Below, in pieces: positions 23,192-35,712 of a stretch of 64,000 nt of DNA. This stretch comes from Halobacteria archaeon AArc-dxtr1 (lineage in GTDB: Archaea; Halobacteriota; Halobacteria; Halobacteriales; Natrialbaceae), in the NCBI GenBank assembly GCA_025517425.1, contig JAOPJY010000001.1, forward strand, positions 1,226,217 through 1,290,216, written 5' to 3'. A program made the translations under genes and the position numbers. Position 1 is the stretch's first letter, and each line of letters starts with the position of its first letter. The notes beneath the pieces are model-generated. The model was given only the letters and a program-made list of their open reading frames with translations. It was not told the DNA's origin and ran no database searches.

Positions 23192-23295
23192 AGTACCATC
23201 CTGTGTGGATTGGGCGCTTGTAGCTGTCGACAGTGATCGAGGGTTTTCGAGAGTCGTACCAAAATCGGTTTACTGAGTTGTGGCCGAAAGTCAGT

Positions 23296-23943
23296 ATGAC
23301 TCAACTCGATCTCGCGGCCCTGAGAGAGCGCCAGACGGTGCTTCTCGGCGTCGCGGTCGTCTTCGCGGTCCTCTCCGCGCTCGTTCACCTCGGCATCGGG
23401 GTTTCCGAAATCGTCGACGGCATAACCGGCGACGGAGTCGCCATCGTGGCCGTCCTATTCGTCGTCAGCGGCGTCGTCGTCTTCGCCCTCCTGACAGCGC
23501 TGGCAACCGGCGCACTCGCACCACCGGTTGCGTACCTCGCCGGCGGCGCGCTGATGCTTCTCAACCTGTTCGCCTACGTCGACGTCCACGCGCTCGGGCT
23601 GTTCGAATCGGCCACCGGGGCCGACGTCCACGATCACGGACACGACGATCATAGTCACGGCGACGACGGTCACAGTCACGGCGACGACGGTCACAGTCAT
23701 GACGACGGCCACAGTCATGACGACGGCCACAGCCACGACGACGGCCACAGCCACGACGACGGCCACAGCCACGACGACGGCCACAGCCACGACGACGGCC
23801 ACAGCCACGACCACGATCACGACGGACCTGTCCACGAGGTCGTCATCGACCACCTTCGCGAGGACTACGTCGCACTCACCACAAAGGTGAGCGAGACGGT
23901 CGCCGCGGTCGCGTTCTTTACCCTGTACGTTCTCGAGCGGTGA
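23296..23943 (+). CDS. Membrane protein with extended histidine-aspartate repeat
   Basis: A 215-residue protein, with the ATG at 23296. Three transmembrane helices (about 16-40, 48-72 and 76-97) precede a run of eight DDGHSH-type units (about 112-176), then one more hydrophobic segment near the C-terminus. Asp/His repeats of this form bind divalent metals such as zinc or nickel in transporter loops. The DNA is an almost perfect 18-base tandem repeat, so unit number may vary between strains. No catalytic motif is visible; a metal buffer or transport accessory is an inference. Confidence 0.75.
   Translation: MTQLDLAALRERQTVLLGVAVVFAVLSALVHLGIGVSEIVDGITGDGVAIVAVLFVVSGVVVFALLTALATGALAPPVAYLAGGALMLLNLFAYVDVHALGLFESATGADVHDHGHDDHSHGDDGHSHGDDGHSHDDGHSHDDGHSHDDGHSHDDGHSHDDGHSHDDGHSHDHDHDGPVHEVVIDHLREDYVALTTKVSETVAAVAFFTLYVLER
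23629..23823 (+). repeat. 18-base in-frame tandem repeat encoding DDGHSH units
   Basis: The unit GACGACGGCCACAGCCAC and close variants recur in tandem from about 23660 to 23810, in frame with the membrane protein gene at 23296. The flanks are degenerate units rich in His codons. High identity between units suggests recent slippage or unequal crossover. Confidence 0.8.

Positions 23944-24097: not shown

Positions 24098-24121
<24 letters not shown>
24019..24121. repeat. Three tandem hairpins at tnpB-downstream end of element 2
   Basis: Perfect stems are at 24019-24038 (nine pairs, AA loop), 24074-24094 (CGAGAGACC/GGTCTCTCG, TTC loop) and 24101-24121 (CGAGACGGC/GCCGTCTCG, TTC loop). The last one overlaps the tnpB stop region. 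This cluster is the candidate structured scaffold of the guide RNA. Confidence 0.8.
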
Positions 24122-25327
<1,206 letters not shown>

Positions 25328-25544: not shown

Positions 25545-25720
25545 GGGTTTTCTCCTGTATTTCGTATAAGCGATAACTCAGCAGACGAACACACAACACC
25601 CACATCGTAGCCATTCGGACAACGGCCCCGGACTCTCGTGGCTCGTCACCATCGATGGGATCGACTCGCGACCGGTCACCGACCGGTACGATTAAGTGTG
25701 CATCACCTGCCTTGTTTCGT

Positions 25721-25948
25721 ATGAGTGGACGACCGCTTGACGTCCTCGAGGCGTCCCTCGACGAACAGGTCACTGTACGGCTCAAGACCGGTGACGAGTA
25801 CGTCGGCGACCTCGCCGGCTACGACCAGCACATGAACCTCGTCCTTGCGGACGTGAAGAGCCCGGCGGCGGGCGAGCCCGACGTCGAGACGCCGACCGAA
25901 GACACAACGATTATACGCGGCGATAACGTCGTCTCGATCACTCCATGA
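25721..25948 (+). CDS. Archaeal Sm-like (LSm) RNA-binding protein
   Basis: A 75-residue LSm protein, with its start at 25721. The Sm1 motif is [27 protein letters not shown], and the Sm2 motif is [12 protein letters not shown] at the end. The insert between them ([16 protein letters not shown]) is acidic and haloarchaea-like. Archaeal Sm proteins form heptameric rings on U-rich RNA. Its stop overlaps the L37e start (ATGA at 25945-25948), a gene order conserved in haloarchaea. Confidence 0.93.
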
Positions 25949-26428: not shown

Positions 26429-27727
26429 GTGAGACGACGAACGTACATCGCGCTAACTGGCGCACTGACTGCGGGTCTCGCGGGCTGTCTGGGTAGCGAT
26501 TCGGACGACGAACCGGGAACGAATGACGACTCGGAAACCGGCGACGAACCGGAGACGGACGACGGCGGCCCGGGAACGGACGAGCCAGAATCGGAGGACG
26601 AGGAATCAGAGGACGAGGAGTCGGAGGCAGACGACGACTCCGACGAGGGAGAAGCTGAAGCGATCGGCAGCGATTGGCCCCGTCCAGCGTACGATGCCGG
26701 ACGCACGCGGTACAACCCCGATGAAGCATGGATCGGCGATCTCGAACCAGTCTGGACCCACTCGTTCGAATACGCCAGCAGCCACTTCGTCCGAGACGGC
26801 GTCGTCTACGTGAACCGAGACCGCAACGGTATCGTGGCGATCGACGCCGACGGCGAGATCCGGTGGGTACAGGACCTCCACGTGATCGGCGACATCACAG
26901 TTGTCGACGGCGAGATCGTCGCTCGAAACGACAACGAGCGGCTCTTTCGCTTCGACGCCGACACGGGCGACCGACTCGACGCGGCCGATCCGGAGTTCGA
27001 GGGGAGCATCGTCTACCTCGGCCCCGAGGGGATCTACACCGTCGCCGACGGCGAATCGATTGGAGAATACGTGCTCAGAAAGTACGACGTTCAATCGACC
27101 GAAACCGAGTGGGAGCGCACGCTCGAACTCAGCACATGGAACAGCGACATCCTGTTCAGCGGCGATACGCTCGTCCTCTCGAACCGGTTCGAGACGTACG
27201 GCGTGGACGACGCGACCGGAGACGTCCTGTGGGAGTCGGAGTACGGCTCCCAAAGCGACAGGCACTTCGCCGCCCGTGGCGGCCGCATCGTCTTGTACAA
27301 CGACCCCGACGACACCCTGTGCGTACTCGACGCAGACGGCGAACTCGAGTGGGTGACCGAGGAGATGGATCGAATCCGTGGATCGATCGCCATCGACGAC
27401 GACGCCATCTACTACGGGGAAGGCGACATCATGTACGCGGTCGACGTCACTTCCGGCGAAACGCTGTGGGACTATATCGGGACCGAGGACATTCAACAGA
27501 CCATCGTCACGTCGGATACGGTCTATACCGTCGAGAACGATCAGACCTCGGGCGGAACGCTGCTGGCTCTCGACAAGGCAAACGGCGACCGGCGATTCGA
27601 GGACGCCGACGCGGACTGTGCCGGAATCGTCGCGGCGAACGACGCCGTCTACATCCGAACGAGACCGTCGATTACCAGTCGCGGCGTCGCGGCGCTGCAT
27701 CCGGTCGCCGAGGAAGACGACGTGTAG
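26429..27727 (+). CDS. PQQ-like beta-propeller lipoprotein
   Basis: A 432-residue exported protein. It has an N-terminal RRR plus hydrophobic stretch and lipobox LAGC (Cys20), then a long Asp/Glu/Ser linker (about 22-78) of the kind that spans the haloarchaeal cell wall. From about 80 on, YDAGRTRYNPD and repeated blades of the type GDVLWE/GETLWD, VYVNRD and DDAIYYGEGD form a beta-propeller like the PQQ-dependent enzyme repeats. No quinoprotein active-site residues can be identified, so binding or scaffolding is likelier than dehydrogenase activity. A similar gene is at 34294-35457. Confidence 0.82.
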   Translation: MRRRTYIALTGALTAGLAGCLGSDSDDEPGTNDDSETGDEPETDDGGPGTDEPESEDEESEDEESEADDDSDEGEAEAIGSDWPRPAYDAGRTRYNPDEAWIGDLEPVWTHSFEYASSHFVRDGVVYVNRDRNGIVAIDADGEIRWVQDLHVIGDITVVDGEIVARNDNERLFRFDADTGDRLDAADPEFEGSIVYLGPEGIYTVADGESIGEYVLRKYDVQSTETEWERTLELSTWNSDILFSGDTLVLSNRFETYGVDDATGDVLWESEYGSQSDRHFAARGGRIVLYNDPDDTLCVLDADGELEWVTEEMDRIRGSIAIDDDAIYYGEGDIMYAVDVTSGETLWDYIGTEDIQQTIVTSDTVYTVENDQTSGGTLLALDKANGDRRFEDADADCAGIVAANDAVYIRTRPSITSRGVAALHPVAEEDDV

Positions 27728-27893: not shown

Positions 27894-29087
27894 ATGAACG
27901 TCACCGACGCCTTCGCCGGTCTCGCGTGTCTCGATTGCGGGGCGCTCGCCGACGATACCGAACCGACCTCCCGCTGCGAGCAGTGCGGTGGGCTCCTCGA
28001 CCCAACGTATGAGTACGATGCGATCGAATTCGATCGGGCGGCGGCCCCCTCCCAATCTGGCGATTCGATGTGGCGATACGCGGACCTCCTCCCGTTCGAG
28101 CGTGACACCGCCGTAACTCTTGGCGAGGGGGCGACGCCGTTGGTCGAGTGTCCGAGTCTCGCCGATGAACTCGGCGTCGAGCGCGTACTGGTCAAAGACG
28201 AGGGCCAGAATCCGACGGGGACGATCGCCGATCGCGGCCTCTCGGTGGCCGTGACCGCGGCGAGCCAGCACGGCGCCGAGACGGTCGCACTCTCGGATAC
28301 GGGCGACGCTGGCCAGTCCGCAGCGGCTTACGCCGCCCGCGCCGATCTCGACTCGCAGGTCTACCTCCCCTCGCGATCGGGCTTTGCGACCAAGGCGATG
28401 GTTAACGTCCACGGCGGCGAGATGAGCGTCGTCGGCGGTCGCCTCGGGGACGCCCGGGAGGCCTACGACGAGGCCCTCGCAGAGCACGAGGAGTGGTCTC
28501 CGCTCGGAGCCTTCGAGACGCCATACCGTCACGAGGGGGCAAAGACCCTCTACTACGAGATAGTGGAACAACTCGACTGGACGACGCCGGACGCTGTCGT
28601 CGTTCCCACCGGCGAAGGGGTGGGGCTCCTCGGCGCGTACAAGGCGGCCCGGGAGTGTCGCGACCTCGGTCTCGTCGACGAGCTACCGGCGCTGTACGCG
28701 GCGCAGGCCGCGGGTTGCGCCCCGATCGCCGAGGCGATGGAGGCGGACCGCGACGACCCCGAGCCGGTCGATCATCCGGACACGATCTGTGGCGAGATCG
28801 AGGTGCCCGACCCCGTGGCCGGAAGCCGACTGCTCGAGGCCGTCCGCGAGACCGACGGCGGCGCGGTCGCCACCGAGGACGACGCGATCCTCGAGGCGGC
28901 GGTCGCCGTCGCTCAAGGCGAGGGACTGGAGATGGCCCCGAGCAGCGCGGTCGCTGCCAGCGGCGCGTGGAAGCTCGCCGAACAGAGCGAGTTCGACGGC
29001 GACGAGACCGTCGTGATCGTCAACGCCGGCGCGGGAATCAAAGGCGCCGACGTGCTCCGCAGCCACCTGATGGGTCGCGGAATCTAA
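27894..29087 (+). CDS. Threonine synthase-like PLP-fold protein lacking the Schiff-base lysine
   Basis: A 397-residue fold-type II PLP family protein. An N-terminal zinc ribbon (C12, C15, C28, C31) is followed by the threonine synthase core with TLGEGATPLVECPSL. The conserved NPTG(S/T)FKDRG motif is here NPTGTIADRG, so alanine 112 replaces the PLP-linking lysine. The phosphate loop is also altered (SDTGDAGQSAAAYAARA rather than the STGN form). The rest of the fold is intact and long enough. It may be a non-PLP paralogue or a regulator; ordinary threonine synthase activity is doubtful. Confidence 0.85.
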   Translation: MNVTDAFAGLACLDCGALADDTEPTSRCEQCGGLLDPTYEYDAIEFDRAAAPSQSGDSMWRYADLLPFERDTAVTLGEGATPLVECPSLADELGVERVLVKDEGQNPTGTIADRGLSVAVTAASQHGAETVALSDTGDAGQSAAAYAARADLDSQVYLPSRSGFATKAMVNVHGGEMSVVGGRLGDAREAYDEALAEHEEWSPLGAFETPYRHEGAKTLYYEIVEQLDWTTPDAVVVPTGEGVGLLGAYKAARECRDLGLVDELPALYAAQAAGCAPIAEAMEADRDDPEPVDHPDTICGEIEVPDPVAGSRLLEAVRETDGGAVATEDDAILEAAVAVAQGEGLEMAPSSAVAASGAWKLAEQSEFDGDETVVIVNAGAGIKGADVLRSHLMGRGI

Positions 29088-29522: not shown

Positions 29523-29811
29523 TAGGCGATCACCGCCGAAGGGGCGGACACAGTGGAGGTGTCGGGAGAGTCATCAGACAGTACGTCCGAAACAGCAGAC
29601 AGTTTCATCACGTTACCTGGTTCGTTCTGTAACCGATATATGCGTTCCCGGACACCGGTGATAGCAGGTAACCCCGACGACACCGCTCGATTCGGCCAGC
29701 GACTGGTTGCAGAGTCGCCCGCGCTACCGGCCTAAATCGGCGTCTTCGCTCCGGCAATCGGTGACGCGAGGATCCGCAGGGCTTTTGCTGGTTGTCGGGA
29801 AACGGGGCGGT

Positions 29812-30513
29812 ATGTCTACACCGTGGGCCGACTGGAACCACATCCTCAAGATCGATCCCGACAAGGATCTTCCCGAGGGTGTCACCTACGGCGATCTCTG
29901 TGCGACCGGAACCGACGCGATCGAAGTCGGCGGAACGATGGGGATCACCGAGGAGAATATGACCGCCGTCATCGAAGCGTGTGCCGACCACGACGTCCCC
30001 CTCTATCAGGAGCCGTCGGACCCGAGCGTCGTCGTCAAGGACGAGGTTTTGGAGGGGTACTTCGTCCCCATCGTGCTCAACGCGGGCGACCCGTTCTGGA
30101 TCACTGGCGCCCACAAGGAGTGGGTCCGGATCGCCGACGACTTAGACTGGGACCGGTTGGCCACGGAAGCGTACATCGTCCTCAATCCCGACGCCGACGT
30201 CGCGACGCTGACGGAAGCCGAGTGTGACCTCTCTGCAGAGGACGTCGCCGCGTACGCGTCCGTCGCCGAACGAATGCTGGGTCAAGACGTCGTCTACGTC
30301 GAGTACTCGGGCATGCTGGGCGAGGAGTCGGTCGTCGAGGCAGCCAGCGAGGCCGTCGACGAGTCGACGCTCTTCTACGGCGGCGGAATTCGTGACTACG
30401 ACTCCGCCTACCAGATGGCCACCCACGCCGACGTCATCGTCGTCGGGAACCTCGCCCACGACGAGGACGTCGAAGCGGTCCGCGAGACGGTGAAGGCGGC
30501 AAACGACGCCTGA
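29812..30513 (+). CDS. Geranylgeranylglyceryl phosphate synthase (GGGP synthase)
   Basis: A 233-residue TIM-barrel prenyltransferase that makes the first ether bond of archaeal lipids from glycerol-1-phosphate and geranylgeranyl diphosphate. It has the [13 protein letters not shown] start, the [14 protein letters not shown] strand-loop, and the C-terminal [30 protein letters not shown] phosphate-binding block. I chose the ATG at 29812 because the upstream extension is not conserved in type. It stands alone among lipid genes here. Confidence 0.93.
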
Positions 30514-30603: not shown

Positions 30604-30798
30604 ATGCAGATAGACCGATTCGACCTCCAGGCAGACGTCACCGGCACGCTCGAACTCGTCTGTGAGCGCACAGAGGGCGAGGAACCGGTCGAGGTGCGGA
30701 CGTTTACCGGCAGGGACGAGTTCGGCCTGCTGGCCGACGACCTCGAACCGAACGAAGCCGTCGCCCTGTTCGTCGAGCGAGGGAACGTCGCGGAGTGA
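30604..30798 (+). CDS. Small acidic conserved-type protein upstream of aspS
   Basis: A 64-residue acidic protein with a beta-alpha-beta look: [19 protein letters not shown], then [23 protein letters not shown], then a helix. No motif is recognised. It lies 68 bases upstream of aspS on the same strand. Confidence 0.55.
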
Positions 30799-30866
30799 GG
30801 CGACCGGACCCGTTCCGTCGGACACGAACGAAGGCGCTTAAGTTTGGGCTCCGAGAATCAGGAGGT

Positions 30867-32171
30867 ATGCAGAACAGAACCTACACTGCGGACGCCGAGC
30901 CGGGCGACGACGTTACCGTCGCTGGTTGGGTCCACGAGATCCGCGACCTGGGCGGCATCGCCTTCCTGATTCTCCGAGACGCGACCGGGAAGATCCAGGT
31001 CAAGTTCGAGAAAGACGAGATGGACGAAGAGCTAGTCGAGACCGGCCTTGGCGTCGCCCGCGAGAGCGTCGTCTCGGTTTCGGGCGCCGTCGAGGAGGAG
31101 CCCCGCGCACCGACGGGCGTCGAGGTCACCCCGGAGTCAGTTGAAGTCGTCTCGGCCGCCGACCCCGAACTCCCCCTCGACCCCTCCGGCAAGGTCGACG
31201 CCGAACTCTCGACGCGGCTGGACAACCGCACGCTCGACCTCCGCAAAGAGGGCGTCCAGGCGGTCTTCGAGATCCGCGCCGAGATCCTGCGTGCGGTCCG
31301 CGAGCAGTTCCGTGCGTTCGACTCCACGGAGATCACGACGCCGAAGATCGTCGCCACGGGAACCGAGGGCGGCACCGAGCTCTTCCCAATCACCTACTTC
31401 GGCGAGGAGGCCTTCATGAACCAGAGTCCGCAGCTGTTCAAGCAGCTGATCGCCGGCTCGAACGTCGAGCGCGTCTTCGAGATCGGGCCGATCTTCCGCG
31501 CCGAGGAACACAACACGCCCCGGCACCTGAACGAAGCCACCTCGATCGACTTCGAAGGAGCGTTCTGTGACGCCGACGACGCCATGGACGTCGCCGAGGG
31601 CGTCCTGAAAGCGGCCTACGAGGCCGTCTCCGAGAACTGCGCCGAGGAGCTCGAGGCGCTGGGTCTCGCCGAGGAGTTCGAGGTTCCCGAGGGCGACTTC
31701 CCCCGCATCAGCTACGAGGAGGCCATAGAGCGCATCAACGCGACGGGCGAACTCGACGAGCAGCTCGTCTGGGGCGACGACCTCTCGACGGCTGCCGAGG
31801 AGGCCCTCGGCGACGACGTTGGCGGCCACTACTTTATCACTGATTGGCCCAGCGAGATCAAGCCCTTCTACATCAAGGATCACGATGACGACGAGCAGCT
31901 CTCGACCGGCTTCGACCTGATGCACCCGCGGATGGAGCTCGTCTCCGGTGGCCAGCGCGAACATCGCCACGAAGCCCTCATCGAGGGCTTCGAGCAGCAG
32001 GGGTTAGACCCCGACCAGTTCGAGTACTACACGAAGATGTTCAAGTACGGCATGCCGCCCCACGCTGGCTTCGGGCTCGGCGGCGAGCGCGTCGTCATGA
32101 CGATGCTCGGACTCGACAATATTCGGGAGGCTGTTCTGTTCCCGCGAGATCGCCAGCGTTTGTCGCCGTAG
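30867..32171 (+). CDS. aspS: Aspartate--tRNA ligase, archaeal type
   Basis: A 434-residue class II synthetase. The N-terminal OB-fold anticodon domain (about 15-100) opens with [27 protein letters not shown]. Motif 2 is [23 protein letters not shown], and motif 3 is [29 protein letters not shown] at the C-terminus. Haloarchaeal enzymes of this type are often thought to charge tRNA-Asn as well; that cannot be proved here. GGAGG at 30861-30865 sits one base before the ATG, too close to act as a normal ribosome site. The stop codon lies inside a perfect hairpin at 32158-32180. Confidence 0.95.
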
Positions 32172-34293: not shown

Positions 34294-35457
34294 TTACCGG
34301 TTGGCTGCTTCGTCGTGGTGGCCGAGCGTGCCGAGTCGAACCCGCGAGTCCTCGCTCGACCCGTCGGCACCTGCGTCCAGCGCGTACAACGTTCCGCCGA
34401 TCGTGCCGACGTAGACGATCCCGTCCGCGACCGTCGGCGAGGACCGTATCGCTCTCTCGGCCATGAACGACCACACTTCCTCACCCGCCTCCGCATCCAC
34501 AGCGACCAGCGTATCCCACGAGATGTGGAAGGCGAGTCCGCCGGCGACAGTCGGCGACGAGGTGTTTGCGTACTCCGTTTCGGCGGATGGCCACACCCGG
34601 TCACCGGTCTCCGCGTCGATCGCGACGTTTCCTACGTACACTGTCCCGTCGGCGACCGTCGGTGACGAGGTCACCCCCACAGTGGGCTCGTCGAACGCCC
34701 ACTCCCGCTCGCCCGTCTCCGCGTCTACCGCGTACAGCGTCCTGTCGTTCGCCCCGACGTAGACCGTTCCGTCCGCGACCGTCGGCGACGACTGCATCGG
34801 ATTGGCCGGCTCGGTAAAGTTCCACTCCTGCTCGCCCGTCTCCGCGTCTACCGCGTACAGCGTCCCGTCGTCCGCCCCGACGTAGACCGTTTCGCCAGCG
34901 ACCGTTGGCGACGACCGGATATGATTGAGTCGTATCGAATGCGACGGCTCGGTAAAGACCCACTCTTGCTCGCCCGTCGCCGCGTCTACCGCGTACAGCG
35001 AGCTGTCATCGGATCCGACGTAGACCGTCCCGTCCGCGACCGATGGAGAGGAGTGGATCTCATCCTCGGACTGGGTAAAAGCCCACTCTTGCTCGCCGGC
35101 CTCGGTATCGACGGCGTACAGCGTGCCGTCGACTGAGCCGACGTAGACAATCTCGTCCGCAACCGCTGGTGAGGAGTACACTTCCTCGGACGGCTCGGTA
35201 AAGGCCCACTCCCGGTCGCCCGTCTCCGCGTCTACCGCGTACAGCGTCCCGTCGTACGATCCGACGTAGACAGTCCCATCGACGATCGTCGGCGACGACC
35301 GGATGGCGTAGACTGGGTCGTCAAACTCCCAGCGGACGGTGCCAGCGCCGGAGTCGCCGTAGAGGCCCACACATCCGGCGACCGAAGCGAGTCCCATTCC
35401 GGCGGTGGTCCGGAGCAGGTGACGCCGATTCAACCCCTTCCCGAAACCATTGGCCAT
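34294..35457 (-). CDS. PQQ-like beta-propeller lipoprotein with tandem blades
   Basis: A 387-residue protein. Twin-arginine signal NRRHLLRTTAGMGLASVAGC and lipobox, then at least eight near-identical blades of about 38 residues, each with SSPTVADGTVYVG and TLYAVDAETGE(Q/R)EW. Blade identity is high even at the DNA level, so repeat expansion is likely recent. One blade near residue 285 has lost the TLYAVD part. The family is the PQQ-repeat/outer-membrane-assembly-like propeller group. A TATA-like box lies about 29 bases upstream (35483-35490). Confidence 0.87.
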   Translation of the reverse strand: MANGFGKGLNRRHLLRTTAGMGLASVAGCVGLYGDSGAGTVRWEFDDPVYAIRSSPTIVDGTVYVGSYDGTLYAVDAETGDREWAFTEPSEEVYSSPAVADEIVYVGSVDGTLYAVDTEAGEQEWAFTQSEDEIHSSPSVADGTVYVGSDDSSLYAVDAATGEQEWVFTEPSHSIRLNHIRSSPTVAGETVYVGADDGTLYAVDAETGEQEWNFTEPANPMQSSPTVADGTVYVGANDRTLYAVDAETGEREWAFDEPTVGVTSSPTVADGTVYVGNVAIDAETGDRVWPSAETEYANTSSPTVAGGLAFHISWDTLVAVDAEAGEEVWSFMAERAIRSSPTVADGIVYVGTIGGTLYALDAGADGSSEDSRVRLGTLGHHDEAANR

Positions 35458-35482
35458 TCTGACTAGTGTCCATCTACTTACC

Positions 35483-35490
35483 AATAAAAA
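35483..35490 (-). promoter_or_regulatory. TATA-like box for leaderless propeller gene
   Basis: On the - strand the sequence TTTTTATT is centred about 29 bases before the ATG at 35457, which fits leaderless initiation. Confidence 0.5.
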
Positions 35491-35712
35491 GGTATGGATT
35501 TGAAATGGGTTGCAGATTCTTCGCACCGCCCCAGTTCTCATCGACTGATTTGAATGTATTGAGGCAACCACCCATACCGAGGAGACGATCCGAGCTACGT
35601 TGAGCGATCCCGGTTCGGTACCAACACCTCCGCTCTTGAACGCGAGTTGTACGAGCGACGCTAAATAAGAAATTGCGCCACTAACTACTGATCAGAACAA
35701 GAGAACGAACCG

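Follow-up and report, generated by a model that had tools for sequence, protein, structure and literature searches.

A threonine synthase-like protein that repeatedly lacks the PLP lysine in haloarchaea: a probable pseudoenzyme

The stretch of haloarchaeal DNA analysed here (64,000 nucleotides; the window) carries an uninterrupted 397-aa ORF with an ATG start, whose product has the motif NPTG-TIADRG, with alanine at the position of the Schiff-base lysine (A112). Absence of the lysine is not a lone mutation of this gene. As judged from sequence comparisons, the protein is likely to be a recurrent fold-type-II PLP pseudoenzyme with a non-catalytic binding or regulatory role: an essential catalytic residue is absent from an intact protein, and the gene is kept by selection, as seen in 22 pairs of lysine-less relatives. 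An initial annotation of the gene had raised a possible non-PLP role, and after the analysis this appears to be the best reading.

The window gene and its active site

The gene and those of its parts that are discussed below are located as follows (positions in the window):

27894-29087 (+), gene of the threonine-synthase-like candidate pseudoenzyme (PF00291, NF006050, AF2 model, Foldseek)
27927-27986 (+), N-terminal cysteine pairs C12/C15 and C28/C31, putative zinc-ribbon-like, in most copies
28227-28229 (+), codon (gcc) of A112, the Schiff-base lysine position (alignment to solved threonine synthases)
28305-28307 (+), codon of D138 in the Asn loop, N138D (alignment to solved threonine synthases)
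28392-28442 (+), residues 167-183, with many near-invariant columns (K167, M169, N171, H173, G182, R183)
28614-28616 (+), codon of E241 in the glycine-rich phosphate loop, G241E (column comparison)
28776-28802 (+), residues 295-303, second conserved stretch (P295, D296, T297, G300, E303)
29025-29027 (+), codon of A378, T378A (column comparison)
29034-29084 (+), C-terminal helix and tail, residues 381-397 (D386, R389, S390, L392, M393 and G396 near-invariant)

The PF00291 match spans the whole domain (212 bits, E 1.2e-62). The protein scored 322.1 bits with the NCBIfam model NF006050 'threonine synthase', which is above the cut-off of 303 despite the absent lysine, and 164 bits with TIGR00260 (thrC), just below the cut-off of 167.1. 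The AF2 model, obtained with a 76-sequence alignment, was confident and full-length (pLDDT 94.1, pTM 0.93) and predicts a fold-type-II PLP fold, as in threonine synthase. When it was used as a Foldseek query, the ten top matches were all threonine synthases (TMt 0.85-0.89), the best PDB matches being 6NMX, 2ZSJ and 2D1F. The conserved C-terminal columns sit, in this model, on helix 381-394 and the tail that follows it.

Alignment with solved threonine synthases confirmed that Ala replaces the PLP lysine at residue 112 (TIADRG), as the initial annotation had read, in a gene that is otherwise intact. The bases that had been given for the altered site (28231-28236) fall on D113 and R114, about one codon off. 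The stretch SDTGDAGQS (residues 134-142), which had been described as a changed phosphate loop, is indeed altered (N138D), but it aligns with the Asn loop of the solved enzymes; by the same alignment the glycine-rich phosphate loop is PTGEGVGL (residues 238-245), which is also changed, G241 being replaced by E. From ThrC structures we take column 138 to be the cofactor-facing Asn, 238-245 to be the phosphate loop and 378 to be the Thr near the pyridine N1. The Schiff-base lysine, the Asn contact, the phosphate-loop glycine and the Thr near N1 are all replaced in the window protein, and among the 17 active-site columns compared it departs from the consensus of lysine-bearing relatives at nine more besides 112.

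The genome (G000; 2.8 Mb, 98.8% complete) holds six PF00291 matches. One of them, at G000:C1:1462478, is a second threonine synthase with the SFKDRG motif and 36% identity to the window protein; a threonine synthase elsewhere in the genome, for which the initial annotation had advised a search, is thus present, and the window gene is not the sole candidate for this activity. The other four matches resemble, by eye, IlvA, CysK and two TrpB. Set against ThrC (PF00291, NF006050/PRK08197; 2D1F, 6NMX, 2ZSJ, 1UIM), the window protein is alike in its predicted fold and NPTG..DRG frame and unlike in the absent lysine, in the changes at the Asn, phosphate loop and Thr, and in having another ThrC in the same genome.

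Lysine-bearing and lysine-less relatives and their neighbourhoods

Homologues were gathered across Halobacteria, and after 13 rows had been dropped (12 duplicates and one 291-aa fragment), 217 non-redundant haloarchaeal sequences were analysed. Column 112 holds K in 112 of them and another residue in 105 (T in 36, A in 30, L in 16, R and V in 7 each, E, G and I in 2 each, and D, H and Y in 1 each), variability at this column being built into the lysine-less set by its definition. To these eleven replacement residues M was added by the survey of the window's own family. Conservation of A112 in haloarchaeal homologues, which the initial annotation had raised, was not observed: Ala occupies the column in only 30 of the 217 sequences, beside many other residues. 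All 71 non-haloarchaeal loci (L042-L112) have K.

Within the window's own family the gene was found in 124 of 125 genomes at E <= 1e-75; six genomes also contain more divergent second copies, which account for seven more rows. Of the 124 genomes, 69 have K at column 112 and 55 do not. Five of the 69, belonging to genus g2, have TSKDRG with changed loops, and the four other genomes of the window's own genus all have K. A match at 1e-60 was obtained in 112 of 116 genomes of family f3 and, counting either copy type, in 147 of 148 genomes of family f4. A threshold of 1e-40 matched 341 of 341 genomes, which is no census of the window gene, since a true ThrC passes it too. A census by DNA pattern (43 of 341 genomes) was dropped as a count: of 30 pattern loci retrieved, 18 lacked a homologue, and the window itself was missed.

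Among the matches listed, the nearest relative of the window gene is 70% identical. A lysine-bearing orthologue from the window's genus (L006, TFKDRG) shares this level of identity and also has an LSm gene upstream; unlike the window protein, it matches all 17 active-site consensus columns. A sequencing error, which had been named as a possible refutation, is very unlikely, since the lysine is also absent from 54 further genomes of the family and the window protein shows the nine further departures from the consensus. Lysine-bearing homologues, named in the same way, do occur among close relatives, including the four genomes of the same genus, but this is not taken as a refutation, because the two forms are retained alike and have their neighbourhoods in common.

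A more distant haloarchaeal paralogue (L378-L388, L038, L039 and L268) was grouped by its PTNTFKDRG motif and identity; the lysine is present in 14 of the 14 copies read, and the loops are changed in L384. In L037, L253, L254, L014 and L018 Lys is found at 112 but several other active-site residues are absent, and the lysine may be there by chance.

The following neighbours of the gene were identified in the window:

25655-25948 (+), LSm gene, upstream neighbour (PF01423; in 37 of 74 own-family loci and the window)
29707-30513 (+), PcrB-family gene, downstream neighbour (PF01884; in 30 own-family loci and the window)
30795-32171 (+), aspartyl-tRNA-synthetase-like gene, further downstream (class II D/K/N domain; 'Asp' by eye)

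Genes in the flanks were predicted with a heuristic based on length and G+C, then grouped by single-linkage clustering; some predictions are wrong-frame or over-long. The 74 own-family loci comprise 37 with LSm upstream, 13 with the amine-oxidase neighbour that is usual in other families, none with both, and 24 with neither within the flank. Where relatives have LSm, it lies ∼1-2 kb from the gene, and the AspRS-like gene is present in some of the own-family loci whose flank extends that far. Both forms of the gene occupy these places. The LSm cluster contains 22 lysine-less and 15 lysine-bearing loci, and the cluster with PcrB downstream contains 15 of each, the window being additional in both cases. 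Across the 217 loci, a divergent amine-oxidase gene lies beside 69 (25 lysine-bearing, 44 lysine-less) and a LysE exporter beside 45 (20 and 25, respectively), and a metallophosphoesterase and an HD protein are further neighbours common to both forms in other families. No common pathway or functional partner was found from the neighbours, either LSm, PcrB and the AspRS-like gene or those of the other families.

In family f4, none of the 32 lysine-bearing copies has the amine-oxidase, LysE, metallophosphoesterase or HD neighbours within the flank, and 16 of them adjoin a gene resembling (by eye) 6-phosphogluconate dehydrogenase. The fetched copies of the other type in this family are all lysine-less (19 of 19), and the amine-oxidase neighbour accompanies 11 of these; it should be noted that the f4 tally is biased, as mostly lysine-bearing copies were fetched, by score.

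Other ORFs of the window were described by eye. A putative TnpB-type transposon protein (24098-25327, -) adjoins the LSm gene, and a beta-propeller-like, putatively secreted protein (26429-27727, +; PF13360) is encoded between LSm and the window gene. A second beta-propeller-like protein, also judged to be secreted, is encoded at 34294-35571 (-), and 23233-23943 (+) encodes a membrane-like protein whose long series of HSHDDG repeats may bind metal.

History of the lysine

In a 104-row IQ-TREE phylogeny computed without 20 active-site columns, the lysine state requires at least six changes, all of them forced by starred branches. When the site was defined by six columns, the minimum was four reversible changes, while in a no-regain model, rooted by assumption at the PTNTFKDRG paralogue, the site was lost 11 times and the lysine 19 times. 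The root of the tree is uncertain; FastTree with an outgroup placed lysine-less rows near the root, a placement that was given little trust because of long branches.

The lysine state varies inside the genera g89, Halococcus and g51. L237 differs from the 17-column lysine-bearing consensus at 112 only, and its congener L240 matches 17 of 17 columns, as does L203, though its congeners are lysine-less. Allele exchange was sought in five genomes and was clear in one (G117) and less clear in four. The G117 gene is closest to lysine-bearing copies from other genera (85-89%), whereas the adjacent LSm (94-97%) and PcrB (91-93%) genes are closest to those of its own genus and g18, nearly all of which lie beside lysine-less genes. 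This mismatch of affinities points to allele exchange.

The common neighbourhoods might also have arisen without repeated loss, from ancient tandem paralogues, one active and one dead, of which each lineage lost one. Most lysine-less rows do fall outside one lysine-bearing clade (100/99), and the six-column site needs only the four reversible changes given above. We nevertheless consider this history rather unlikely: none of the 217 haloarchaeal loci has a second copy in its flanks (whose length varies, some ending at contig ends), second matches being found solely in the non-haloarchaeal L075 and L103, and both the variation within the three genera and the full match of L203 among lysine-less congeners argue against it. 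It is an account of history, not of function, and is compatible with a pseudoenzyme.

Constraint, function and significance

The active-site columns differ in how far they follow the lysine. G241 is retained in 110 of 112 lysine-bearing versus 9 of 105 lysine-less sequences and K216 in 107 versus 2, while N138 is retained in 109 and 70 and T378 in 112 and 68, respectively. No compensating lysine appeared at another column, the largest gain of K in the lysine-less copies being 6 points. A sign test of correlated loss on six independent pairs reached significance in none of the columns that were read; a column differed on average in ∼0.6 to 3.1 of the six pairs and then in the same direction, except for column 243, which went either way.

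These columns bear on the possibility that the lysine-less protein is still an enzyme, with non-covalent PLP or PLP-free chemistry acting on a new substrate. The pocket frame (NPTG..DR, G137, Q141) is near-invariant without the lysine, and some cofactor or ligand binding is possible in the lysine-less set, given the retention of N138 and T378 in the majority of its members. However, eleven residues are found at 112, position 241 of the phosphate loop is variable (H, T, S, I and others), a shared lysine was gained at no column, and the window protein is altered at N138 and T378 as well, which makes a surviving enzyme improbable. The lysine-less protein probably performs no PLP catalysis in the cell and probably binds a ligand or partner.

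None of the 38 hand-chosen pairs reached a dN/dS of 1; the median was 0.14 (largest 0.52) in the 22 lysine-less pairs and 0.093 (largest 0.30) in the 16 lysine-bearing pairs. The pairs are relatives, the window gene itself standing outside them, and from these and its intact frame we infer that it too is under purifying selection. Sequencing error or a pseudogene was rejected in view of the intact ORF, the 54 other lysine-less genomes of the family and the purifying selection in relatives. That the lysine-less copies are decaying genes heading for loss is very improbable, for although their dN/dS is somewhat the higher and their active-site columns drift, all 22 pairs remain below 1, inner stops are absent among the matches listed, and the gene is present in nearly every own-family genome (124 of 125).

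The same residue is found at a frequency of at least 95% in 65 columns of both the 105 lysine-less sequences and the 76 lysine-bearing ones from outside f4, the latter being pooled irrespective of genomic place; the near-invariance of residues 167-183 refers to these lysine-less copies and to lysine-bearing copies outside f4. Eleven of the 65 columns (N171, G175, G182, R183, P265, P295, G300, E303, S390, M393 and G396) are kept in less than half of the 32 lysine-bearing f4 copies, whose active site is kept; since 22 of these 32 come from one genus, the replacements may represent few events. Eight columns besides 112 (126, 139, 237, 241, 244, 289, 301 and 323) are fixed in both lysine-bearing sets and relaxed in the lysine-less one. 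On the basis of this reciprocal pattern (11 versus eight columns), two separable functions are proposed.

For the pseudoenzyme reading we propose the following mechanism. The gene is kept nearly everywhere sampled in haloarchaea, with fully equipped and lysine-less versions replacing each other in the usual neighbourhoods, the lysine having been lost repeatedly and, at least once, relatives having apparently exchanged the gene. The property common to both versions is probably a non-catalytic function: most likely the stable fold would bind either another protein or a small ligand resembling an amino acid, the putative contacts being the C-terminal helix and tail and the constrained stretches 159-187 and 295-307, and the protein would act as a regulator or scaffold. 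The lysine-bearing versions have probably remained enzymes, perhaps with the non-catalytic function as well; catalysis seems to matter in their lineages, since the site is kept in those same neighbourhoods. Counting against this reading, the two forms could serve different purposes, and conservation of the stretches may reflect no more than the needs of folding at high salt. Counted in its favour was the phenotype of Haloferax volcanii with a transposon in thrC3 (HVO_2969), which is reported to depend on Gly, Ser and Thr supplied as a mixture (PMC4300041); thrC3 may belong to either the lysine-bearing or the lysine-less group.

A broader reading is put forward tentatively, at somewhat less than even confidence. 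The protein, nearly class-wide, would combine PLP catalysis with a separable non-catalytic function on another surface; the catalytic half would have been lost repeatedly in the usual neighbourhoods, the f4 copy at the other place would keep only catalysis, and the non-catalytic function would explain the wide retention of the gene in Halobacteria.

SPTLC1 and antizyme inhibitor are PLP-fold pseudoenzymes that have lost the PLP lysine or PLP use and retained a regulatory role. They differ from the window protein in being of fold types I and III, eukaryotic and with known partners. In trypanosomatids, a catalytically dead paralogue of deoxyhypusine synthase is kept, is needed for growth and activates the live copy in a heterotetramer (PMC3663545). 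This is a different enzyme, and activation in a heterotetramer is a feature of that system. No description of lysine-less fold-type-II PLP proteins was found among the listed papers and passages of the open-licence literature searched.

Annotation by NF006050 would name the window copy threonine synthase, and the catalytic lysine is absent in 55 of the 124 own-family genomes that hold the gene. The parallel changes constitute a natural experiment, in which orthologues that differ in the lysine, in some cases inside a single genus, allow the enzyme to be told apart from any other function.
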